64,000 nucleotides of DNA. Source: Styela clava (lineage: Eukaryota; Chordata; Ascidiacea; Stolidobranchia; Styelidae). Below the pieces are notes generated by a model that ran no database searches, had not been told where the DNA came from, and saw only the letters and a list, made by a program, of their open reading frames with translations. The first letter of the stretch is position 1. The number at the start of each line of letters is the position of its first letter. The position numbers and the translations under genes were made by a program. Positions 284 to 20,700 of the stretch are shown piece after piece. The stretch is from assembly GCF_964204865.1 (NCBI RefSeq), contig NC_135252.1:15707383-15771382 (forward strand). The letters run 5' to 3'.

Positions 284-3200
284 ATTCAACATCGTATCAT
301 TCGCGAGCAGCCGACCAACAATATGGTCGGACACCGAGGCCGGTTTAGTTGACGTAACTAAAGCAAATCTTAATGACGCCATTGCACACGTAAACGGTAT
401 TCGTGCTGCAGGAGGTGAGTATGAGCTCTCAGTCACGTGGCTTTACATATTGTTGCTTATGTATTACATGAACAATCTATGGTATTCAATCGCCTTTATT
501 ATTGTCAGGGACCGATTTCAACAGTGCCTTAATAGCAGCTTCTAAATTACTCTCTGGAGTAACGATGGATGACAAAGTTTCAGCCATGATAATTCTTTTA
601 ACTGATGGTAAACCGACGTCGGGAATTACAAGAACATCTAGCATCCGAAAAAATATAAAAGAAAAAATTGAAGGACGATTTTCTCTGTTTTGTCTTGGAT
701 TTGGCGATGATTTGGATCATGACTTTTTAAAACGAATGGCAAATGAAAACGACGGAATAGCCAGGTATCAAAACTACATTAAATTTTTTCAACCTAACAA
801 GAATATTTTACTTATTCATTCTTATTTTGCAGAAAAATTTATGAAGATTCCGACGCCGACTTACAACTGGAAGGATTTTTTCAAGAAGTTGCGACACCAC
901 TTTTGCTCAATGTCAAAATGACTTATTTAGGTGTGAACTTGGCAAACATCAGTCAAACAGATTTTAGCAAATTCTTCAGAGGATCTGAAGTTGTTGTTGT
1001 TGGAGCAATAGCTCCCGGTGGCGGTGAGTTGCAGTAACAGAGTCCAGTACGACAATGCCATTTTTTTAGTGATTATCCGGTCTTTCTCGTTGATTTCTTG
1101 CGGTATCTAGCGATATTTGCAGTTAATATTATTATTCTGGCATTTATGTGTACAAACACTATGATCTTAATACAATTATAGCTGATAATGAAGATTCGTT
1201 AAAAATCGTTCAGGTGACAAAACGAAAGTTGTTGAATCAACGATCAAAGGAACATCTAAGGATGGTGAAGTAGAATATAATGTAAAAAGCAAAGAATTGG
1301 ATAAAACATTTCAACACTGGCACAAAGAAACTGGCGCATTTGAAGATTTTATAGAACGTTTATGGGCGTATTTCACAATACGCGATCTTTTGGAAAAAAT
1401 AACTTTATCATCAAGTCGAGTGAGTTATTCTTGTTCAAACTCGTGTTGTTCTTCACTCTTTTTGGCCATTTAATATTCAATGCTCTCATTATTTTCACCT
1501 TCCCACACAGAGAGAAGTTTATCAAATAACAAGTGAAGCACTACGATTATCTCTGAAATACAGTTTCGTGACTCCTCTCACATCGATGGTGGTTACATTA
1601 CCTGAAGATGAAATAACAACAACCCCTGCTAGACGTGAGTATTGGGATATATTCACTTGCCTAAATGATTGAAATCTTTTTCACCATTACACAATAGCAG
1701 TTTATTGTGTGCTAGATTCAAATAATTTATATTTTTAAATTATTCAACGAAACAGAAGACATGGTTTCATATTTATACTAAAAAATTCAATTAATTAATC
1801 CAATCCTATGACAAAGTATGGCCATAGCAATCCTGTTGACGGTCTCCCTGATAACTAGCCAGGTTGATATAAGGTGGATGTTTCCGCCAAGTAGTTAATC
1901 AGAATTTTCCCTGAAAAGCTGCAATAGACGAGACTAAAATCATCCATTAGTATATGTAAATGACAGGTAGTTTATTAATAGATTAGAAATGATGGTGTTT
2001 AAAATATGTACAACAGTTTTTAGGCGGCACCTTGCAAAATCTCAAATAAGGCGTCAAAAACTTTGGTATGGTATGGAGAGAATTTGTTTGGGGCCAAAAA
2101 TGGGGGAGGACATCTAATCGGTAAATCATTTAATTTATTTTTGTATATGGACGTGATTAATAGAGTATTGTGCAAACTCTCTAAATGTAAAAATAAAATC
2201 AACCGATAATTACTTGTTTCAGCCACAATAATTCCAACAATACCTCCGTGTTATCTTCGAAGTGACATCATTCCTCGAGGACACCTGCTTCTACGACCTC
2301 CTATATGGTGCCCCTATATCTTGTCAGCGGCAAGAGATAGCAGCTCGTCAGATAGTGGAAGGGACTCTTCCTCTACCAAAACCCTTTCCGGAAGAATCAT
2401 AGGTTTGTACAGTACTTTAATAATTTGCCTTTGCCTCATGTTGTTTTTGATGTTAAAAAGTTGAAAAGGTCAAAGGTAACGTTGCAAAATCACTGATTCC
2501 TATTTTTGTGAAGTGATTCACTGGTGCTGTATTACAACAATTTGACAATGCGAACATATATCACCACCTCACTCACGAGTTGACAGAAGTAAAGTTTCGC
2601 TACTATTATGAACCTTTTTAGTGAATGCAATTGGCTTAAATCTGTCCCCTGTTCTACAGTACAAGACAAAATTGTAGCGAGATGTTCAATTCCTTAGCCA
2701 CGTTCCCATTTTACCTTCGCATAATATTTATTTCTGCTGTCGTTTCTGTTTTCACATTCTTTACAGGAAGCTCTTCAGGTGGATCTTCTGTGCAGCGCAT
2801 AATTGGGGGTAAGTACGAAAATATATTGTTGACAAAAATAAAACGCCTTATCTCTTACGAGATAAAAATGTAGTAAAGTATCATTTTTAGCGACTTCTTA
2901 ATTTTTTCGTTGTATAACATTCAATTTTAGTTTAACTATCCACAGGTGGGTCATCAAGTAGAACTGGTTCGATACCACGCTCAGGCAAGTACAAAAATAT
3001 ATCCAATTGTTTTAATGAAGCCTTTCCCAATAGAAAAAATTTTAATATTTATTATGTATGATTGGTCAAACCAAAATACCGAGGCACTAACAAGAAGTTG
3101 ATAGAATACTGATGACCAAAAAGTGCCACAACGCTACAACGCTTAGATATAAATGCACAGAATATTTCTACCGTTCAAACTCCAATATATACTTATTAGC

Positions 3201-6200
3201 TATTGCCAGCCAGCAGCAGTTCAATTTTAAATAAGTGCTGGCAGAAAATCTAATGGGTAGATGGTAATTTCTAAGAGCACCGCGAAAATGGAATTCTCTT
3301 CGTAACTTGTTGAACGATCGATTTTAAACCTTCAGAAGTAAGATGATCCAGAAGACTAGTACTTTAATTTATTTTCCAGTTCCCTTGTGAGTATCAATGA
3401 GGTCCAATATTACACCCAAAATTACACTGCTTTATTTTAATTCATGGGAACAAAGTTATAACTTTCTCAGGCGTGACCGCCTACGTCACGGCTGACAATT
3501 TGTTTTTTGTGAACGCTATGCTCAGCAACATTTTTGCATTTTGTTGCTCTTTTGTTTATTTCCGATTACTCTTGATATTTCACCATTTAATTATGTGCGT
3601 TTCGGGAGTTTCCGGTAGAATCCCACTTCTCGACGGTTTTTCAGGTTACTTGTGAAAGAGTTCTAAGGCTCTTATTTAAAAAACATACGAATTTATTTTT
3701 GCTATAAAATTGTCAATAAATATTAACTATGGCAAAACCCGAGAATTTATTACTCCGAGTAGACTTTCTGTGGTGTACTACAAACTCCGTATATTAAATA
3801 CGGTACGCAAGTAACGCTACCGTTATGAACAGAACAATTCGGCTTAAACAAGTATTGAAAACGCTCTGAATGAAATAAAAAAATAGTAATGACATATTCA
3901 CTAATACTTTAACTTACCTACATCGCTTTTATACTGTATAACTTGTCTTCAATTATGAGGATAATCAATTATGATATTATATTAATGATATATATGTATA
4001 TATATATATATATAGGTATTTCAGGAGGTTCCGGTTGGAAAAGACTTTTACCAGGTTTGTTAAATAACATCCTGTTAATGGTGAACGGTTAGGTTGTGAA
4101 CAGTGATGAGACTCATTATATGTTCCTTACCTTATATGTTCATAATTGAATATAATATGATTGGTATTAATGTATTCTATATATTTCAGGGTTTACTCCT
4201 CCACTTCCTCCACGTGAGTTTGGAATCTAATATCAATACTTTTCTATCTCTAAGTAGTATGCGACTCAAAATTGTAATTGTCGATGTCGTAAAATCTCGC
4301 AACGCGACTTAACTATAGTTTACTTCATAAAGTTCATGTTCAAAGATAATGTGCCTGGTATTGAAATGATCTATTCTATATATTTCAGGTGATCCTCCTC
4401 CACCTCCCCCACGTGAGTTAGGTATCTAATATCAATACTTTCCTATCTATTTGACACAAAACATACATTTGTTAGCTAATGTTGGATGTATAAATAAAGT
4501 AATTTTTTTCTATTCGGCTTGAACGATTTTTTTCGATCGTAGGTATACACAATATTTGATTTGATCTCGTTGTTATACTACTCTTTGTGCCTTTCAATTT
4601 ACGAAGTTTTAGAATAATGTGTTTGATATTGAGATCATGTATTCTATATATTTCAGAGTTTAATGCTCCCATTCTCCCACGTGCGTTTAGTCTCTAATAT
4701 TAGTACATTTTTATTCATTTAATGAAATCAAGAACGTTTCAATAATCAGTTCTTGATAATAGACAACCAATTTGAAAATTATAAAATATTAGACATGTAC
4801 GCAAAAAAGATTGTTAAATGCTATATCTTCTCCTGCGTCGAGTAATAAAAAGTGCGCTTTCTAAAAGTTGCTGTTTGATTTTTTAATATTCACAATTCGT
4901 AACAATTTTTATTAAACATTTATAGTGTATCTCAGATGAGCATTGATTTCATTAAATGTATATATATAGATTCAAATTGATTATCTTGCTTTATTTGTTT
5001 ATGACATGTACTTGTACCTATACCAACCTGTCCACATATTGTTCTGTGGAACAAGAGCGTAATTATCGATTTAAAACTTATAATAAACTTAACAACCCAA
5101 GACATTAATTAAAAAAGGTCAGGCATTTTTTCTAGTAAAAATGATCGAAGCACGCACTCATCCCTGAGCCACCACAAATAATATTACTTTTGTGATTAGG
5201 CGCGTAAATCAAACAATTGTTGTGAGATTCATTCTAAAAATTTAGGCGCTAAAAATTTGTGCTGTCTCGATTATAATTTTTTTAACCAATTTTTAAGCTA
5301 ATATCTGATATCTCTTGATTGCCTATTAAACCTATTTCTCCCTACGTTACATTTTATCATCGTTTGCAGACATAAAAATCTGGGATAAATGTAGTGGAAA
5401 ACTCGACGACGAAAGCGGCACAATACAACTCCCGCATGAGATTAGAAAGAATCCATATCGATGTGAATGGAAGATTGAACTAACAGAAAATAGTTGGATA
5501 GACATAAAAGCGAAGACACTTAACACTACTCAAAATAAAGTGAGTAAATTATGTGAACACTTTTACTATCTCATTCGCGTATGTCTGCAGATAAGCCATT
5601 GCTATTTCTCGGAAATTGCTCATAATCGGATGTTCGAATGAAAAACTAATCCGATAAGACGATTTAATCACATTTCAGAACACAATCTTCTCCATAGCCC
5701 TGGTCGGGTATGAGAAGAGAAATGTTTAACCAACTTATGGTTCAAAAAATATGAACTTGGGTGGCGGAGAATGCCTTAATCGAACCACGGAGCGTCGAAC
5801 AATCATGCGGCGGCGTATGTCAATAATCCTCCCGCGCAGAGAGGTTTCTAGCGCTTCACACAAAGCTGCAATCTTTGCAATCGAATCTTAGATCAGTACA
5901 GTCATTAGTCGGAATATTGTATACTTTTTCGCCGCGGTGTTTCATGAGCCACAGTTTACCAAACATAATTGAAACAAAAAAACAATATGCGATTGGAACT
6001 TATTTCAATAACACTAAATTTGATTCAATTCGAATCACGAACGTTCCCGCCACTCCCCCCAAGCACACCCCGCTTCTATTCAATACCAAATCAATGATTC
6101 CAACATGATTTGGTGCAGGTAATCGTCACAAGCCAGGGCAAAACTATTCTGGAACATAAAGGTGGAATCTCCCAGTTGAAATCCGTGTCGATACAGCATA

Positions 6201-7136
6201 ACACAGCGACTGTTCTGTTGACGGTTTATCCGAAAGATGATCGATGGCCAGGAATTGTGATTTCTTACAATCAATGTAAGTGTGATATGAGCATCCATTT
6301 ATTTTATTGGATTCATGTAAACTAGTTCATGTATATTTAAGTTGCATGCCTATTTCAATCTACGACATATGCGCGTCGAAGCCACTTAATAAATTATGGA
6401 AAAGTCGAAACTAGTAATCAGTCAATATATATGACGTGCGCAAACCATAATTTATTCAGCACGATTTGATTAAGAAAACAATGTGTTGTGTGTTTGAATT
6501 TGTCTTTGGATGATGGATATGGTTTCTTAGTTATTATATTATATGCATTTTGTCAATGTAGTTAACGGACCATTGCACCACTCTCATTTTTTCGGCCAAT
6601 TTGAAGATTGTACACATTTTACAAATATATATTGTGTCAGACTAAATTAGGATATTTTCCCTTCTCACTCCATTTGCAATATTATATAAATTGAATACTG
6701 TTTTGTAGTCAAGCCAGATCGTCCGTTGCAACCAATTGCTACACCGAAGGATTCTGAATTTGCTTTGAATCAATCTATGAAGAATTGTGGTGATGATATT
6801 TCATCTTCTAATAGCAAAGAAGGCATCATCACATCTCCCAAGTATCCAAAAATGTATCCAGACAACGCATATTGCATATGGAATTTTGCCAACACAGATT
6901 CGAGTCACAAATTGCGTTTAACCATCATTGATATGGATATAGAAATGGGATCAGGAGATCAATGCAATCACGATAAATTAGTTATCAAAAATGGGAAGAA
7001 TGTGCAACAAATCTGTGGATACAATCTGCAAGATAGAATAACGACATCGGAGAAGCTAATATCGATTGCATTTTTGAGTGATGATAGTTTGGGAGCTGGT
7101 GGTTTCAAAATGCGATACCGATTTGTTCCTAAGTAA
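284..7136 (+). CDS. Unit A: ITIH-like vWA/CUB protein, 3' portion (gene starts before window)
   Basis: Partial gene entering from the left edge. Exons by splice sites and by alignment with the other units: 284-414, 509-764, 833-1023, 1214-1419, 1511-1634, 2223-2402, 2767-2808, 2946-2984, 4025-4054, 4190-4213, 4389-4412, 4657-4680, 5370-5539, 6119-6275, 6709-7136. Phases are consistent to the TAA (675 codons including stop). The first exons are the second half of a vWA domain, with the MIDAS threonine in GTDFNSAL and the aspartate in LLTDGKPTSG. Next come the ITIH C-terminal region, a Ser/Gly/Pro-rich linker, a CUB domain split over two exons with only the first Cys pair, and a final-exon CUB with four Cys (NCGDD, YCIW, QCNHD, ICGY). 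Known family role: ITIH-like proteins are secreted and matrix-associated; CUB domains bind proteins. The exon at 2946-2984 uses a GC donor. Function of this paralog is inferred only. Confidence 0.82.
3599..3640 (+). pseudogene. Dead copy of the 30-nt linker microexon (unit A)
   Basis: The sequence resembles the live microexon at 4025-4054 (GGTTCCGGTTGGAAAAG type) but its acceptor reads ttcgg instead of ttcag, so it should not be spliced in. It lies in the large intron 2985-4024, where nothing else is recognisable. The same relic occurs in unit E near 55520-55565. The similarity is short, so this is a tentative call. Confidence 0.3.
4190..4680 (+). repeat. Three tandem 24-nt proline-rich microexons (unit A)
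   Basis: Exons 4190-4213, 4389-4412 and 4657-4680 are each exactly 24 nt, are preceded by the same intronic tail (tattctatatatttcag) and are followed by gtgagt or gtgcgt. Each is phase 1 to phase 1 and adds eight residues such as TPPLPP, DPPPPPP and FNAPILP. They arose by local duplication of a segment of about 200-270 bp. Unit E carries the same trio at 56095-56118, 56294-56317 and 56562-56585. Confidence 0.6.
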
Positions 7137-8746: not shown

Positions 8747-11700
8747 ATGACTTGGACTGAAGTCCAAGCAAAGGCTGTTGTGCTGCTATATCTATATTCT
8801 GTATGTTTTGCAAATTCTCTGTCACGGGGACAGTCTCTCGTCATTGCAGAAAGTGACGAATTAGCGGTAAGGTTTTTCTTTTACTATTCAATGGCATTTT
8901 GAAATTTTTTTTATTATACCAGCAACGCTATATGTTGTCATCAAAAATTATATATATTTATTTTTATTCCTGATTCCAGAGAGAGAAAAGACATGCATCG
9001 TCTTATCATGGACCTGATGAGCCCCATCACAGTTTGCACGTCACGAGTGTCGTCCAGTCAAGATTTGCGAGAGTAACGTTTGTGAATAAAATAGCGAACA
9101 CTGAACGCTCAGCGAAAGAAGTTGTTTTTTCAGTAAGGCTTCCAGAAGCAGCCTTCATCACAGAATTCGACATGTAATTTTTTTTACAATATCACGGAGT
9201 TTTATAACTTAGTGTTACTTAATGTTTTCACACTTTTTTCTTCTTTGTTAACCTCACACAGGATTGTTGGCGGTGTGAAATTTGTCGGGAAAATACGAGA
9301 GAAGAAAGAGGCAAAAGAACAGTACGATCGCGCCGTCGAAAAGGTGAGATGTTTTCTATACTCTATTTGGGGATGGGAAACCTGAATTACTCTCGTGTTT
9401 TATTATTGAACATCGTCTACTCTATTTGTTAGAACTCATTTAATACCTGCGCCTCTTTCCAAAGACTCACACGAACGTAGGCCGCGAGCCGAGGCCCTGA
9501 AAAACGCCTAGAAAGTGAGTTTCGTAGCGCACATCAGGTAACTAACTAAAAATGATTTTAAAATGTTCCCTAAAAATTTAGTAACAAATATTGCCTTGTT
9601 CCCACTTCCAAAAGTTGCACGTTTTACGGAAAAGACGCTTTTACTACTAGAAATATGTGCAACGATCAATGTTCCCTCTAATTTTTTGTAGTATGTGTGC
9701 GCAGAAATTTTGGTGTGTGCGCACTTTTTTGGAAATGACTAATATTTGTGCAAAAACCAATGAAGAAATTTTGGCGTTCTAACCGGGTAATGAGTGGGCC
9801 AACAACAAACTTTCTCAACCTGCCAACCGAGAACATTATTACATTACATCGAAATACGTCTGTGCGCAGTAAATCTATGGGTGTTGTCAAAAACTGAATA
9901 TAACTGAATACAACTGAATACAACTGAACACAACTGAAAACAACTGAATACAACTGAATACAAAAACTGAACACAACTGAATACTACCGCACACAACTGA
10001 ATACACGGCTCGTGGCACGTGACATAAGTTTGAAAATGAATACAACTGAATATAACTGAACACAGCTGAATACAACTGAAAACAACTGAACAAAACTGAA
10101 TACGACTGAACAGAACTGAAAACAACTGAATACACGCAACGAATACAACTGAATATAACTGAACACCACTGAATACAACTGGAGAAAATGGCACGGGACG
10201 CATAAGATTCGTGACGTCATCACTGATTACGTCATAATAGATAATGCGAATTTTAGAGATAGCCCCTCAAGCAATACATCAAACGTTTCAGAAGGATGAG
10301 GCGGTTTCATTACGGTTATTTGTGGCGTGATTGGTGACGTCATTGCTGATTACGTCACAATCGATAATGCGAATTTTGGAGATAGAACATCGAGCAATAT
10401 AGCAAACGTTTCAGAAAGATGAGGCGGTTTCAATACGGTTATTTTTGGCGTGATTGGTGACGTCATTGCTGATTGCGTCACAATCTAAGATTTGAATATT
10501 CGAAATATACTGGCGTGCAGTATAATGCACCTTTGAGACAAACGAGATGGTTTGAATGTGGCGACTTTCGACTAAATTTATGACGTCATTAGTGGTTACG
10601 TCATAATATCAAATGCAAAATTTCAACATATAATCACGACTAGTATATCAAACGTTTCTGAAAATGAGACCATATTATTACGGTCATTCGGCGTGTTTAG
10701 ATACGTCACCGCTGATGACGTCAAAATATTTCGACGTGATTTGTGGCGTCATCACTAATTACTTTATTGACGCTCGTGCAAATTTTTGAGATTGAGGTAA
10801 CACGAAATCACTGACAATGTTACATGATGCATACTCAGTTTTGTCTACGAAGCAAAATATACGCGTGGCTTGTTTAGGAGGTAATCAAAATTTGCCTAGA
10901 GTGAAGAACAGTGGTTGAATGAGCGCCGATGCTTGTACATATGATATCATTTTATTTTGATACAAATGTATAGGAATCGTGTGGCCTCTCGTTTGGTTGG
11001 TAGCCAATATTGGGTATGGTGAGCTAGCTAGATATTTCAGGTGCATGAATTTGACTTAATGATGGAGGAAGCCGTAACCGATCAGCAGTTACGTGAACCA
11101 CATTGCGACGGCGATAAGGCCAGCAAATCTGGATCCAATGAACTGAACCGCCTGCCTTCTTTTTATGGGATGAAGGTGCTTTAGTCTTCCTATTGTCTTG
11201 CATCCTGTGCCGGTATCTGCGGTACTTGGTGCAGTAAACCCAAACCAAGAACAAACTGAAAGGCGAGCATGATTATCTTAACAACAGCAAAGAAAAGTAT
11301 GTAACATCACGTTTTGTTTTATTCGTGCAAAGAAATGACATGTTCATTAAAGCATACACATCAGCCTAACCAACGTGAAAACAATGAACTGTTAAAACAC
11401 CAACACACAAACGAACTGTAATAAAAGATAAAAACACGAAGCCAGTGACTATTTTGTCCGATAGCTCATCAAAAACACTGGATGAATAAGCTATGTGTAG
11501 TGAATATTAGTCTGTGTCATAATAGGAGCCACGTTACATCTCTCCATCTACTTTTTTGCTGCTCTTTCGGCCCTAGTTCCCTTCTTTTGTCCCGGCTTTC
11601 TGGCAATGTGCGATTTTCTTGGACAAAGAAATGCTGGGTTCGACGCTTCTTCCATTTCGTTTTCAAGGGGAATATGGGAACGGTCTTTTTCAAAAATTAA

Positions 11701-14700
11701 TTTTTGAAATATTTTCTCTTTTTGGCCCTCTCCCATCTCTCGCCATACTGCATTGCTGTAGGAATACTTTTTGAACCTTGAACTTAGGGAATAATTGCCC
11801 CTGCCGTGAATGGCTCTCCGCATGTCTGTGTACTGCAAAATAGCATGGTCTTTAAATTTTTTGATTAGTTGAGGCAGCTTTTGTGGCTTCCAATCAATGT
11901 CAACTTTTATGAGGTTGTTCATCGACTCAGAATTGTTGTTGGTCCACAGCGCTTTTTGCATTAGCCCATTCCTCGGTTTGACAACGTACTCTGCAAGCAG
12001 AGGCATAATCTGTGCAGTTATATACCTCTTGATATCTTCGGGGAACTTTGAAATAAGCCTTTTGCATTCGACAGATTTGGTTTCAAATTCCTCATTTGAA
12101 ACTGCTCTGGCAATTCCATCATCCCCGAAAAGAGAGGATAACAGCATTTTTTTCGACTCTTCGGAAATCGACCCCTTTGTCCGCAACAAACGCTGCACAT
12201 TTTGGATCAAGTGTCGTGTGCATAGAAACCGCTGAACTCCCGGAAAACACTTGTCAAGAGCTTTTGTTAAAGCAAACTCGTTGTCACTTCCAATCCTAAT
12301 TTCCGAAGTGAAAGCAGTGGTTGATATCCTGGAGCTCAAGTGAGAGAAAAAGTGACAATATGTCGTGAATTTTCCATCCCAGTGGAGGTAAATTGGGCCC
12401 AAAAATATAGGATTTTCACCAGTGCTATTTCTTACAACTTTCGACTGCTTGTACACTATTATAGTGGCACAACAGGCACCAAGGTTAAACGTGCGATCAA
12501 CACCCAAAATTGTTTTGTCACTTGTTGTTGAAGCTATTCGCTTGAGATCAGCGAGCTGATTGTTGGTATACAAAATCACACAGGGTGGGGAACCTTTGAT
12601 TACCGCTGCCTCTCGCACGAAGTCATCTGTCTGTACCATGCTTAGCACATCAAGAACCCCATCAGCGAAAGTGCGTGAACCCTCTGTACCCCAACTGTCT
12701 TTTTTGGCATGCATTTTCCTATATCTCACTTGTCGATAGTCCCTCGGGGCATGAATCGAATCTTCGCCAATCATTTTCTTATAGATTTCCCTTGTGGACA
12801 TCCTCGACTGCACATGATCATCGATGTTTTTTTACAACTCCAGGAGGTGTTCTTACATACTCACGCTTGTTTCGTTTTGTATTTTCATGGGGAGGCATGG
12901 GCTGTTTCGGAAAAGCTCCCAGGTATTCAACGACAGCTTTCCCTTCACCGTTGCAGGAACCATCGTAACCACGAAACCAGGACACCCGTTTTCGATAGTT
13001 CGTGTTAGCCTTTAGTTTGCTGTAAACTCTATGAAGAATTAGGATATCTTGGGTGTCGGGCATTGGCCGTACATGCTCTTTCCTGAATTTTCCCCCGGAC
13101 TTTTTCTCTGTGTAGAAGCCATCTTTATCTTTTCTGACGAATTTCAGGTTGCCATTTTCTTCAATGAGGAAATATGCTCTGGTAGACCCTGCTTTTACAC
13201 CACACCACGCGCCACAATCATCTGGAACAAAATTCCTCTTGTTATTTTTTCCCAACTGTACCACGAATCCAATGTTGCTTTTCGGACCAGTGGGGATTTC
13301 TTTTTCAGCAATAACCTCTGCCAGCATAGTTGTGTAAAGTTCATTGGGTGCAAGAAATCTGCCACTCAATTGTATTTCACGCTCATCATTTGATGATTCG
13401 AAAGCAGTAGATGGACTTGATGTGGTAATTGGTGTGGTAGCCCTCATCTTTTTTGGCTCGAACGCATCAGCAGAGTCATCGCTGTCGTCACTGATATCCC
13501 AAACAAATTCAAAATTAATCTGGTCAAAACCGATGCTAGTATCAGAACTGGTTTCATCAAAATTGAGTTTTCCAAATTTGAATGGGGTAACGCCTGGAGA
13601 GTCAGGAATAGTATTCAAAGCCTCCTTTACTGGGGTAGAATGGAGAGCACCAGGATTAAATTCAGTTTCTTCAACAAGTGGTACAAAGTGATTTGGAATC
13701 CAGTCAGAAGTCATCGTCAGTTCTGTTGTTGTCCACATAATCCCCAGATCTACGCCAACTATTTCTCTAGGCTTGATGCAATTGCTGAGAAACTTTGGAT
13801 ATAAGTCCCTTGTCCCATTAACAGGGGGGTACAGCATGTTCACTTGTCTTTTAATGATGTTAGAGAGTGCCATTATTGTCCAAGCTGAAGAAAAAGCACC
13901 AATACGAGTACAGTCGACACAGGCTTCGCGGTAGTCCGGGGACACATGACAAACAACTCTCCCCATATCAGACTGAATGTATTCGTCTTCATTATTGACC
14001 ATTTCGATGCAAGTTCTTGTCCGAAGCTCATTAGCCATATCTTCAGAATCATTCAGAAGCAACGACACTGCGTTGAAAAGACAATTACCATCTGCTGTAG
14101 TCTTAAGTGGGCGTTTGCCTTTCTCCAGTCCATGCTTTCGCAATATGTCCAGTGAGTGACGATCAGTGGATGTATGGTACTTGGTGATATCTTTTTCATG
14201 ACTTATGAAATATGGCATGATATGCTTTTCCCTGATTGTACATGCACAAAAAATGCCCCAATTCTTCTTGGCACTCTAGAAATAGAAATGGAGATTAGTT
14301 GTGAATCACCAATCACAAAATTTATGGAAAATGATGTTTAATTCCGCTATCAAGCATCCCTAATGGCGTTTCCACCATCACAATACTTTAAAATTCACAT
14401 TGACCCCATTGAGCGGGAACCATCCGGGGTTTGTCAAACCGATTGGAACAGACACAAAATCCCATTTTCACCTTCGGGAAAAGTCGTCATATGGTTATGG
14501 AGAATGAAATTCCGTAAAATCTTTCCCATCAATACTGTGCTTAATCTATACATAATCGAATGGACTGTGTTCACCCGTTTTACTAACAATATATCCATCA
14601 GACAAGCAATTTTCATTCCCAAATTTGTAATAAATTCCGTCATGTGGAAATTCATTATTTCATAGTTATTTTTCATCGTGTTGACATAAACAGCGTTAAC

Positions 14701-17700
14701 GTCTCGTGGCAATCCGTATTTACTAACTGCACTCAATATAATAATAATTTATAGCCTCAGTAACTCTTGGCAATTTAGCGATCGTCCGTAACTTTGCTCA
14801 GAGATCAGCGCCTACATTTTGAGAGAGTGCGCGTGACTTTACTTTTAATAAATTTCTTTATAAAAACACTAGACGGATGATGCACAATCTGTAATTAGGT
14901 CTATAAGAACGGAAGAGCGGTGAATTACTTACTCTGCGTAAGCGATGGAGTGCAGTCAAGAAGTCGAATGAACCATCGTCTTCCGAAGAGCACTTTCTGC
15001 ATATATACGATGCTTGCGAGAGGTTCCCAAGTTCCATGATAGATTCTTCTTTCAATTTCTCGCAGGTGCCGTGGAACCAGTTTCCACATATTTCGCATAA
15101 AATGCTGTGGCTTCCTTCGGCACAATTCTTAAAGCATATGCCGCATGGTGATTCACTGGATTGATCCATCTCCTTCAGTTCTTAGTGACAACTTGAATGG
15201 ACTTTCTCAGTAAAAATAGTCTAGCTAAATCAATTGCATAAGTTACCTAATACATCCAAGGGAAAGAAAGGTTCGATGAAATCTTCGCTTGGTACGAAGC
15301 AGATTTAACAGAATTGTACAGGCTAACACGTAACAGAGAGGCAGCAGGGCTGAGTGCTGTATACATAAGGCTTTGGTCGCAATCATATAACGGTTGGTAT
15401 TCATCCGAGGGCAAGCGATACAGATTTGTAGTCCTGTCGTAAGATACCTTGGTTACTACTCGCATAAACCACTTACGAAATTATTGCTTATGATCTCATC
15501 GGAGAACTAAGACCAACGAGCATCCAAATAACCTAACACCTTGCGCGGGCGAAGTGTCAGAAGTCTTGTTTGAGGTTTGAAACGACATCTGGTGACCTGT
15601 GACCCCGGAGACAAGTTTTCAGCGTCAAATGCGACACTAAACTAATTTTCGCAATTTGATCATGTGGTAATATTATTAAAACAAGCGAAAATATTCAATC
15701 CAGGTGTCAGTGATTCATCGCAAAGTGCTTTAGTTAGAATACAAAACACATCCTTCTTCAGCACTTCCGTAAGCAATCCCGTACTTAACAAGGAATAATG
15801 GGTGGTTTGCAGCTAGGCGGTAGGCTACAGCGTGCTCAGCGTTAGGAATACACTCGACATCGCACCTTCGATCCCTCTGCGTGGGTTTGCAGGTCCGTAT
15901 CACATTCGGAGGTTAATTTTATGCGAGAGGGTTGCTGTACTCCTCGACACTATTCACGTTACCGCTGGTCGGTTACGGATTTCTTCACCATCAAGTCCAT
16001 ACCTCTAAAAACAAATACCGTATATGCTCGTTTAACCGCCCGGTCTTGATTAAGCGCCCGTTTGAATAGCCGCCCGGTGTGAAAGCTGATTTTTCAGTGG
16101 TAGAGAACAATAGGAAATAAGAAGCGTATTATGAGGAATTACTCTTAAGACGTGAATAATTTGCGTTTGACATGGAAAAAGGATTAATGTCGTCAAATAT
16201 TTGTCTTCAAAGATACCGGTATCGTAATTTTTGTGTATAATTTCACTTTAAAAATAACAAGCGCTCCTGCTTGAATAAGCGCCGGTTTGAATAAGGGCCA
16301 GGTTAGTGAGTTTGTTTAAAAAAAATAAGCGCCCGGGCTATTAAACGAGCAAATACGGTAACTGGCTAACTAACCCACACCTGACATGGATGGTAACCGG
16401 ACGAGAGGTCGTGGTTAGCCCTAGGATCAAGCCGTCTTTTGTACTTTACTCTCCCCGGGGATGAATATGTAAACCTGTCAAACAACTGAAAACGAACTGT
16501 CTTTACTAGTGTGCACACGAATATTCAGATCTGCAAATGGACTGCAAGCAATCTATCGTGAACATCCGATGCCACAATAAGCCGCATTATAATACAATAG
16601 TATGTTAAATAGTAGGCCTAAGCAGGGGTCGGCAACCTTTTATCGCTCGCGGGCCAAAATTAAAGCTTGCAAGTCATTAGCGGGCCGCACATATTTTAAA
16701 AAAAAGTTAAAAACCGAATGGATGGCCAATGAATCACCTTTTTCACACAGATCCGACGTTAAATTTCAAACAGCGCGCGAAGACTGATCATTTGAATATT
16801 TTCTGCGCCATTAAACCATTTGGACTCGGCATCAACTACGTTTTGTTGCCATTTGTCTAATTATAATAAAATTATAGGCTCATTAAACGAGATTTATATA
16901 CTTGTTAGATTATAATATAATTTAGTCTAAATCAGTGAAGCGTCGTGGGCCGGATTATATTGCTCGGCGGGCCGGATACGTCCCGCGGGCCGTAGGTTGC
17001 CTACCCCTGGCCTAAGCTATAGACAGGATCGAATCTAGACGATGAGAAATAAACAGGCTACGACATTTGTGGCCCCTCTTCAACAATGAGATCTTCATAG
17101 AATATATTATGACGCGATGAATTGATTTTGAAAATTGCTTGAAAATGAATTATAGTTCAAAAATTAAATGTTGAGACGAACACGCGGCGGTGAGGGGCGG
17201 ATCTGGTCGGAGAACACCGTCATAACGAAATCGCCTCTAGTTTTCGGAATCATAAGAACTATACCTGTCCCTGTGCTATTTCGAAAATTCGCATTGGCGA
17301 TAACGATGTGATATGTGATGATATCATCAATCACGACAAAAGTTACCGCACTCAAATCATCTCGTTTTTATTAAGGGTGCATTATACTGCACGTCACTAT
17401 ATTTCGAATATGCACATTTGTAATTGTGACGCAATTTGTAATGACGTCACCAATTATGACACGAATAACCGTAATGAAACCACCTAATCTTTCTGAAACG
17501 TTTGACGCGTTGCTCGAGGGGCTATCTCCAAAATTCGCAATATCAATTATGACGTAATCAGCAATGACGTCACCAATCACGCCAAGAATAACCGTAATGA
17601 AACCGCCTCATCTTTCTGAAACGTTTGATGTATTGCTCGAGAGGCTATCTCCAAAATTCGCATCATCGATTATGACGTAATCAGTGATGACGTCACGAAT

Positions 17701-20700
17701 CTTATGCCTCCCGCGCCATTGTCGAGTTGTATTCAGTGGTGTTCAGTTATATTCAGTTGTATTCGTTGCGTGTATTCAGTTGTTTTCAGTTCTGTTCAGT
17801 CGTATTCAGTTTTGTTCAGTTGTTTTCAGTTGTATTCAGCTGTGTTCAGTTATATTCAGTTGTATTCATTTTCAAACTTATGTCACGTGCCACGAGCCGT
17901 GTATTCAGTTGTGTGCGGTAGTATTCAGTTGTGTTCAGTTTTTGTATTCAGTTGTATTCAGTTATATTCAGTTTTTGACAACACCCTAAATCTATGCGTG
18001 TGCGCAGCCTCTGAAAGCTGTGTGCGCGCGCACACGTGCACACTTTAGAGGGAACACTGGCTACGATCTGTCCTATATTCTCTACATTTTCGGCAATGAA
18101 CAGTGACTTTTGCATGACGTAACAATTGCATCGAATCAGCTGTTAGAGAGCGGATGAATCTTAGTTATTACTGCTCGATCTTGCGTTGAGTGGGGCAGCC
18201 TTTCCATAGCCCTGTTTAGTTATTATTAGTTAGGTTATGCTTAGACGTTGTTAAAAAGTATAAGTAAGTTACTAAACACTTGTACATCCTTACCACGGAT
18301 ATGGGCATGAGACGAGGCCTTGAAAAACGCCTAGAAAATGAGTTTCGTAGCGCACATCTGGTAACTAAATCAATTCTTTAGTTTTGTATGAGTATGAACA
18401 TACTGAACGCATTACAGCTTGTTCCACAATCCTGATGCGAAATTCAATATAAGGTTCCCGGGAATTCAATAACCATAGGTTTACAACAACGCAGCATAAG
18501 AACTATGCAATTCAAGAGCCCTACAGCACACTAACACAATGTATTTCTGTAACGTCTTGCCTCACTAAAATCAGACTTCCTCAGTCAATCATAATTTATT
18601 AGGTAGATTACGAAAAATATGGCATACATGTAACCAACAACAAAAAATATTTTAATTGTGTGACAGGATTTGCGAGGGACCTCGAAAGGTCTTCAAGTAT
18701 GGACACCAACAACGCTCATTCAGATTAGCGAATAAATTTTATGTAATAACCACAAGCAGTTTACAACAAGAACAGCATAAGTAGTTGCATTCATTTTATA
18801 GAAGCTATCAAACGTATTTATTTTTAAGCAATGAAGTCACAAATTAACATCGTGAGCACAAAAAACACAAATAAATCAGTTATTTCTCACTTAGAAATTT
18901 ACAGGAAAAGTCAAGAAAATTAAATGAATGTACAATATGTACATAACATAGTGAACAGAAATATTACAATTAGTCTTTTTTTAGTTTATGTGGTTATGTA
19001 TTTGAACAAAGGGAATATTATTTCTTGAAACAGGACTACGACACTAACGGATGTCCGAAAAAAAAATAAATAGTATTTATTAAATCAACTTCAATATCTA
19101 ATCCACTTTCTTCTGAATTGTTTCCGAAATCAACTATCTCGAAAATCGACTTTTCCTCTATAAGTGTACTGTGGTTTTTGGAGTCAATACAAAAACAAAA
19201 AACTGTGCAATATAGGTTGCTTTCGGCACACACGGCTTATATTACACGGCTTATATTATTTTGACTATTGCCAACACTTGCAGTTTGCCAACTCAAGAAC
19301 TGATTTGGGGGCTTGAAGTAGATCCATCAATTTAACCCGCAAAACACCCTTATCAAGAACACATCTATGGCCGATAGGTGGGAGAATAATTGGCCTTGGT
19401 TCTAGGCAACAATGATGAAGTCCTGCCAGGTAATTTTCCATCAGCTTGCTTGCTTCTTGCCCCACATGCTTCTTCAGTGAATCATTGTTGGGTGGATGAG
19501 TATAATCCATATGCCAGTGGTAAAAAGACGTGGCTGGTATCATTTACCTTCTTCATATCCTCTCCATACAGTGAACAAACAAATTCCCCAGCTTTATTTA
19601 TTAATGCCTCGTTAACCTCAAAAGATCTTCATATTTGAAAAAAAAAATGAATTGAAAAACTCAATGAAGTCTCCAACATCGGTTTGATGGGCAGTTCCAA
19701 TTGCAGAAAAGCGAGAAAGTATTTCATTATGAATAGCCCATCTAAGCTGTTTGCAACTGTTATGATTTTCATATACCTTTACGCTTCAAGACTTCTTGTT
19801 CGATCCATTTTATAGCACTGATAGCAGCAGGGATTAGAGCCTGCGTTAGGTTGGATTGGTGGAACATTGCCGTTTTCTTTTGTAGTGCAGTATCTAATAT
19901 GAGGAAGAAAATCATATTTGGAATAGCAAGAGTGAAAAAATACCACTAAATACTGACTTATACATAATGCATTTTATCTGATGTACTCAATGAGCGTATA
20001 CATGCTCATTGCATTACTAGAGTCCTGCAGTGTTTGCATACCGGTACTAGACTATATCTACACTGAATTTCGATATATCACAATCTGAAATGCCCTATGG
20101 ACTATATTTTAAAACATCAACTATCTGTCTACAACTTGATTTCTCACCTCTCAATCGCTTCCAGTGCTACTTTTCTTTCTACTGCGGCATAACTCATCAT
20201 TGCTTCCCAGGTTCTTGTCGACTCTATAAATTTAGATTTAGACCAACCGACATCAGTAAAATTGATTATTTTCCTCTCTTAAGTATAAGTCTGCTGAATA
20301 GTCAAGAATTGTCATTAAATTAATCATAAACCTTTCATGCAAGTCAGAAAATATCGTTGTTTGTGGCATATTATTCTAGGTCTAGCCTTCCTTGGAGTTA
20401 TTGTACGCATTTAACAACGTCTTATGAGCCAGTGCTCACCTAAAACTGCTATTTAAGGTAAGGATATACAAGTGTTTAATATCCTACTCATACTTTTCTA
20501 CCACCTTCTTAGAATAACTCAATTGATAACAAGAGAGCTATGCTCAAGTATATGGACACGTAGCGCCACCCAGTGGCAATAATTTTGATGACGTCATAGC
20601 GAAAAAAAAACTAATAGCATTCTGGAGAAAAATTTTATCTTCAACCACTGAAAATATCAAAGCAATTGGTCCAGTATTCGAAGAAAAAAGCGATTTTTTA

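Follow-up and report, generated by a model that had tools for sequence, protein, structure and literature searches.

Does a single transposon gene of the ascidian Styela clava encode a PHD finger, an OTU protease and a Mutator-type DDE transposase, and what might such a combination do? This question is raised by the gene at positions 11548-15169 of the window (the whole stretch of 64,000 nucleotides that was analysed), for which the three domains had been proposed from the letters of the window. It was found that one gene within terminal repeats encodes a PHD finger, an OTU domain and a DDE transposase and that the key residues of all three are conserved. The proposal that they belong to one transposon gene was strongly supported by the copies of the element, its terminal repeats and target-site duplications, a common intron position, and unbroken frames in its relatives.

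The gene has two exons and runs along the minus strand. Exon 1 encodes the PHD finger, and exon 2 encodes, in this order, the OTU domain, an acidic linker, the middle domain, which is conserved and contains a DDCGxW motif, and the DDE transposase. The parts of the gene are listed below; family A is that of the window element, and families B, C and D are its relatives in the same genome.

14933-15169, minus strand: coding part of exon 1, 79 codons, found in all seven near-identical copies
14990-15145, minus strand: PHD finger from the first to the last zinc ligand (C9 to C60), Pfam PF00628
14276-14932, minus strand: intron of 657 base pairs (bp), GT..AG, phase 0, with identical position and phase in family B
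12818-14275, minus strand: frame of exon 2, 485 codons in the window copy, covering the OTU domain (PF02338), the acidic linker and the DDCGxW domain
14081-14092, minus strand: Asp-Gly-Asn-Cys motif of the OTU domain, invariant in families A, C and D
13676-13693, minus strand: Asn-His-Phe-Val-Pro-Leu motif of the OTU domain with the predicted catalytic His, invariant in families A, C and D
11548-12831, minus strand: DDE transposase frame, 427 codons, in another phase than the OTU frame in the window copy
12496-12498, minus strand: predicted first catalytic Asp of the DDE domain, from the family alignment motif mapped onto the window
12283-12285, minus strand: predicted second catalytic Asp, mapped in the same way onto the window frame
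11926-11928, minus strand: predicted catalytic Glu, likewise mapped onto the window frame

The predicted splice 14932/14276 (GT..AG, phase 0) places the PHD finger in phase with exon 2, as had been claimed, and an intron is found at the same place and in the same phase in family B. The further claim that exon 2 carries the OTU domain ahead of the DDE domain held in that both are encoded there, but in the window copy their frames are not continuous: that of OTU runs to a stop at 12818, and that of DDE is open from 12831 in a different phase. Frameshifting as the normal route to the transposase was considered and rejected because this break is unique to the window copy, being missing from the other six near-identical copies, five of which are open throughout.

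The surrounding sequence was recognised as a complete Mutator-like element of 8108 bp (window 9879-17986) because of its long terminal inverted repeats and perfect 9-bp target-site duplication.

9879-17986, minus strand (that of the gene): complete Mutator-like element, ends and duplication read from the sequence
9870-9878, unstranded: left target-site duplication TAAATCTAT, a perfect 9-bp match to the right one
17987-17995, unstranded: right target-site duplication TAAATCTAT, a perfect 9-bp match to the left one
9879-10647, unstranded: left terminal inverted repeat (inverted pairs I1, I2 and I22)
17260-17986, unstranded: right terminal inverted repeat (inverted pairs I1, I2 and I22)
9892-10181, unstranded: array of the 10-bp unit AACTGAATAC within the left repeat
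17725-17973, unstranded: array of the 10-bp unit AACTGAATAC within the right repeat

The inverted repeats at the element ends start with GGGTGTTGTC, and two kinds of array are located inside them, one of the 10-bp unit and one of a unit of 123 bp.

To follow the element through the genome, a 2-kb piece of it was searched against 376.6 Mb. Ten matches were obtained: seven, the window among them, had 99-100% identity, another had 91%, a further one matched in part at 78%, and the last comprised 41 bp. Besides the window, eight loci (L009-L016) were fetched. Five of these (L009-L013) possess both ends, are 8105-8151 bp long and are flanked by a perfect 9-bp duplication whose sequence is different in each. 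In the five intact copies, the terminal inverted repeats are 676-691 bp with 90-93% identity. The same five, of the seven near-identical copies, contain a spliced PHD-OTU-DDE frame of 987 codons with no stop. In L014, the right end was outside the fetched stretch, and the frame is broken early; in L015 (91%) and L016 (78%), which are decayed, no end was recognised. When 815 bp of the left end were compared with the genome, 29 matches were found, comprising 7 left ends, 7 right arms and 15 diverged or partial sequences. Synonymous differences among the five intact copies amounted to 0 or 1 per pair over 987 codons (ten pairs). Therefore, the element has spread recently.

The identity of each domain was examined with Pfam and with profiles. 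The PHD finger of the window copy is of the C4HC3 type, as had been proposed for exon 1, and matched PF00628 with an expectation value (E) of 3.1e-7 and 30.7 bits, the cut-off being 24. By sequence, the nearest solved structures are the PHD fingers of Pygopus and KMT2C, and a profile built from families A, C and D also reached the PHD finger of CXXC1 (0.0011). In an alignment of six sequences from four families (a seventh row, L024, was left out since it contains a stop codon and is visibly decayed), the columns without variation were those of the eight zinc ligands, of a Trp located two positions ahead of the His, and of a single Ile and a single Asp.

The OTU domain of the window copy matched PF02338 (E=2.3e-6, 28.6 bits, cut-off 23.3), and this model was also above its cut-off in L048 and L038. 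A profile of four OTU regions matched the solved structures of OTUD1 (7.8e-8), OTUD5 (7.6e-7) and A20 (1.2e-4), with chance-like matches to glucoamylase from 0.007; a phmmer search of solved structures with the OTU half alone gave no match. The identification as OTU is based on the Pfam match and on the profile matches to solved OTUD1 and OTUD5. Asp-x-x-Cys and His are the catalytic residues of OTU cysteine proteases. The Cys (DGNC) and His (NHF) motifs on which the original prediction had relied were confirmed, since DGNC and NHFVPL were invariant in the exon 2 alignment of families A, C and D, although C and D are only 29 and 31% identical to A. In family B, the corresponding motif of L026 and L027 is DGSC.

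In the transposase, D, D, CxxH and E are invariant in families A, C and D. The MULE model PF10551 (cut-off 27.6) gave 28.1 bits for L048, which is above the cut-off, and 26.1 for L059, 16.5 for L038 and 18.1 (E=0.0037) for the window copy, which are below it. The spacing in families A, C and D is 68-70 residues between the two Asp residues and 114-118 between the second Asp and Glu. For arthropod Mutator-like elements (MULEs), the corresponding values given in the portion of PMC13359780 considered are 60-76 and generally 120-135, counted with gaps, so the second interval is slightly short here. None of the three proteins scanned with Pfam had a match in the middle domain; as a guess, this domain binds DNA.

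The fusion of PHD, OTU and DDE recurs in distant relatives of the element within the same genome, and scans of viral contigs and prokaryote genome contigs revealed no relative. When the 79-residue PHD exon was compared with the genome, 18 matches were found: 7 near-identical copies, 2 decayed ones, 3 at 45% identity, which constitute family B, and 6 weaker ones. The three copies of family B (L026, L027 and L028; PHD exon about 45% identical) are all otherwise broken. In two of them, L027 and L028, a GT-AG intron of about 100 bp occurs at the same residue and in the same phase as the intron of the window family; L026 has identical donor and acceptor letters by eye and is without the residue string used to call the join.

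Family C (about 30% identical) was found in two places. L048 encodes PHD, OTU and DDE in a single open frame that is 992 codons long. L063 arose by deletion and has inverted repeats of 938 bp at 97% and a duplication of 9-10 bp. Family D (also about 30% identical) occupies six places: L054, L055, L056, L057, L059/L064 (one place on contig C4) and L060. L059 has the same order of domains in a single frame of 975 codons. L057 has 841 open codons with a break that precedes the last DDE residue, and L054, L056 and L060 are broken or deleted. Long inverted repeats are present in family D, their ends lying outside the stretches fetched. Because L048 and L059 encode all three domains in single frames, the fusion is independent of the splice prediction.

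Taken together, the element may be read as a recently mobile, Mutator-like cut-and-paste transposon in which PHD docking, OTU deubiquitination and DDE transposition would be combined in one protein; judged from the sequences, the probability of this reading is roughly 0.55. It is plausible from the sequence comparisons that the PHD finger reads histones, and likewise plausible that the OTU domain acts as a deubiquitinase. The PHD finger would dock the transposase on the tail of histone H3, and the OTU domain would remove ubiquitin there, either from the transposase, shielding it from the proteasome, or from nearby chromatin proteins. The DDCGxW domain would bind the repeated subterminal units, and the DDE domain would excise and insert the element with a 9-bp stagger. 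For the OTU domain, protection of the transposase complex seems somewhat more likely than deubiquitination of histones.

By analogy, precedents for these roles, and for the targeting of chromatin or countering of ubiquitin-based silencing that had been suggested with the original prediction, may be seen in the histone-binding PHD of a RAG2-like protein (PMC7204232) and in active transposon deubiquitinases of another class (PMC9741609). The PHD of sea urchin RAG2L binds methylated H3K4, according to earlier work cited in the part of PMC7204232 considered. RAG-like transposons (RAG1L-RAG2L) resemble the window element in that a DDE recombinase works with a PHD finger; however, their PHD is carried by a separate protein that has kelch repeats, and no OTU is described in that part of the source (PMC7204232). 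OTU domains occur in Helitrons (PMC6431247, in part), and transposon-encoded VTD deubiquitinases are active, while the OTU domains of transposons were reported as untested as of 2022 in the sections of PMC9741609 covered. Helitrons and Helentrons with OTU or VTD thus share transposon-encoded ubiquitin proteases with the window element but use a rolling-circle RepHel enzyme, and PHD is not mentioned in the text of that paper (PMC9741609).

A number of findings weigh against this reading. The PHD model of Pfam was above its cut-off in family A only (E=0.09 in family D, and not listed for family C), and of the usual methyl-lysine cage, Trp alone is recognisable. In the window copy, the match to PF02338 extended no further than the first two thirds of the model, and PF02338 was below its cut-off in family D (L059, E=0.01). 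The MULE model exceeded its cut-off in no sequence other than L048. Single-sequence AlphaFold predictions had a mean predicted local distance difference test score (pLDDT) of 33.8 for exon 2 and 42.5 for the middle domain, and the models were too poor to show either an OTU fold or the fold of the middle domain. In L028 of family B, Ser replaces the OTU Cys, and in L055 of family D (451-3270, plus strand, contig C2), the segment with the OTU Cys has been lost through a short in-frame deletion while 940 codons remain open; these losses could be decay. In favour of the reading, the ratio of nonsynonymous to synonymous substitution rates (dN/dS) between an intact copy and the decayed 91% copy was below 1 throughout (PHD 0.48, OTU 0.43, middle 0.40, DDE 0.26), but the value for PHD is based on nine changes. 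Comparisons within families A and D were too shallow, so no constraint was visible and many ratios exceeded 1.

The explanation that survives best beside it concerns classification only and is compatible with the mechanism proposed. The element could be a Rehavkus with an added OTU instead of a member of the MULE clade proper, which is possible but rather doubtful. Rehavkus, a sister group of MULEs, is described in Table 1 of PMC6446971 as having 9-bp duplications, a minisatellite, repeats between 26 and 400 bp long, and a PHD finger; the window element likewise has a PHD finger, a 9-bp duplication, long repeats and a short tandem array. However, the Rehavkus minisatellite precedes the 3' repeat, whereas the 10-bp arrays found here are inside both terminal repeats, and one relative (L048) was recognised by the MULE model of Pfam. 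No OTU is mentioned for Rehavkus in the part of PMC6446971 considered, the comparison being made by description. With the MULE superfamily, the element shares 9-bp duplications, long terminal repeats and the spacing and motifs of the DDE domain (PMC6446971 and PMC13359780, both in part), but it differs in having PHD and OTU ahead of DDE. Neither OTU nor PHD is mentioned in the text of PMC13359780, a 2026 survey of arthropod MULEs, and the text of PMC6446971 mentions neither OTU nor a protease.

The PHD and OTU domains could also be inherited structural parts that aid the folding or dimerisation of the transposase and neither bind histones nor cleave ubiquitin. L055 retains a frame of 940 codons despite the loss of its OTU Cys segment, L028 is likewise without this Cys, and the absence of visible constraint within families points in the same direction. 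However, in sequences with an overall identity of about 30%, the positions that stay invariant are precisely the zinc ligands together with Asp, Cys and His of the OTU domain, and the five intact copies of family A retain them, so a purely structural role is considered unlikely.

A bolder alternative assigns the OTU domain to chromatin. The PHD finger would read the state of H3, OTU would strip histone ubiquitin (e.g., the Polycomb-type H2A mark) and thereby open the site or reverse silencing, and DDE would then excise or insert the element, all from one polypeptide. Judged from the domains recognised, such a reader, eraser and cutter in one is as improbable as the structural explanation. If it were true, the transposase would bring along its own means of acting on chromatin against silencing, and at least four families of one genome would have retained this equipment.

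It is less probable still that the substrates of the OTU domain are not ubiquitin conjugates but, for instance, the transposase itself, which it would process, or another ubiquitin-like protein, which it would remove. In Ginger1 and some Mutator elements, the corresponding place is taken by Ulp1-type (SUMO) proteases (PMC2836005, in part), so the class of substrate varies; however, the closest solved relatives in the profile search are the deubiquitinases OTUD1, OTUD5 and A20. In the sections of PMC2836005 considered, Ginger1 is described with OTU or Ulp1 and once with Ulp1 and PHD. It resembles the window element in joining a DDE transposase with OTU or Ulp1, but its integrase is of the Gypsy type, the extra domains are C-terminal, and the duplications are of the CCGG/CCGT type; it carries either OTU or Ulp1, and the combination of OTU and PHD is absent from Table 1 of that paper. 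Mutator elements with Ulp1 are also known from hydra, lancelet and plants (PMC2836005). These are likewise Mutator transposons carrying a ubiquitin-like protease, but with Ulp1 (SUMO-type) in place of OTU. A figure legend in the same source mentions PHD together with Ulp1 for an alignment that has Mutator proteins among its members (PMC2836005).

The explanation that the PHD exon belongs to a host gene or was captured on a single occasion, and merely adjoins the transposase, has next to no probability left, since, although a 657-bp intron parts it from OTU and the fusion in the window family is known from genomic DNA, the exon is within the element ends in all seven near-identical copies, the family B intron is at the identical position, and L048 and L059 are single unbroken frames; a separate gene, which the original prediction had named as one outcome that would overturn it, was rejected on these grounds.

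Proteases of the ubiquitin type are met repeatedly among unrelated transposons, and the authors suggest that they aid transposition (PMC2836005 and PMC9741609, in part). PHD or OTU/Ulp1 in transposons was already known. The closest clade of the element would be MULE proper or Rehavkus, and no report of PHD plus OTU in a Mutator-like transposase was found in the literature covered, mostly titles and abstracts and excluding Repbase Reports. Predicted MULE-like proteins with an OTU domain may be frequent in invertebrate databases, and 'not found' is therefore a weaker statement than 'new'. The family is recent and has five intact copies with PHD, OTU and DDE in one protein, each of which can be mutated alone. 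Whether a chromatin reader and a deubiquitinase serve a transposon in targeting, stability or anti-silencing could thus be tested directly with this family.

Several further observations were made in the course of the analysis. Four of the six weaker matches to the PHD exon (L029, L031, L032 and L034) were scanned with Pfam, L030 and L033 being left out. In these four, a PHD-like finger is located ahead of an endonuclease domain; the endonuclease was above the Pfam cut-off in all four and PHD in two. An endonuclease domain of this kind occurs in retrotransposons without long terminal repeats (non-LTR retrotransposons), and the four loci are probably such elements. If so, PHD fingers are carried by at least two unrelated kinds of mobile elements in this genome.

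In L065 (926-3709, plus strand; C10:23395725-23398508), an open frame of 928 codons is related to the transposases described above, and its next best match in the genome has 28% identity. By eye, PHD and OTU are missing, the domain that precedes DDE is present twice, and neither the second Asp nor the Glu motif has been retained; no Pfam match was obtained at 0.01. Judged from its sequence, L065 is a candidate domesticated transposase gene.

L014 probably holds a nested insertion, since its match to the element within the fetched stretch ends at element position 6251 and its right arm is about 8 kb further on. On genome contig C13, at about 4816950-4832803, an element copy is apparently split by about 8 kb of other sequence. 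On contig C1 (C1:9793466-9796177), two facing arms resembling the terminal repeat of the element are located about 2.7 kb apart; this pair is perhaps a non-autonomous relative. Finally, a small inverted-repeat element is nested in the transposon at window positions 16016-16360. Its first 20 bases were present in six of the eight fetched loci (L009-L014) and were found in neither L015 nor L016, which indicates that it travelled with the young copies.

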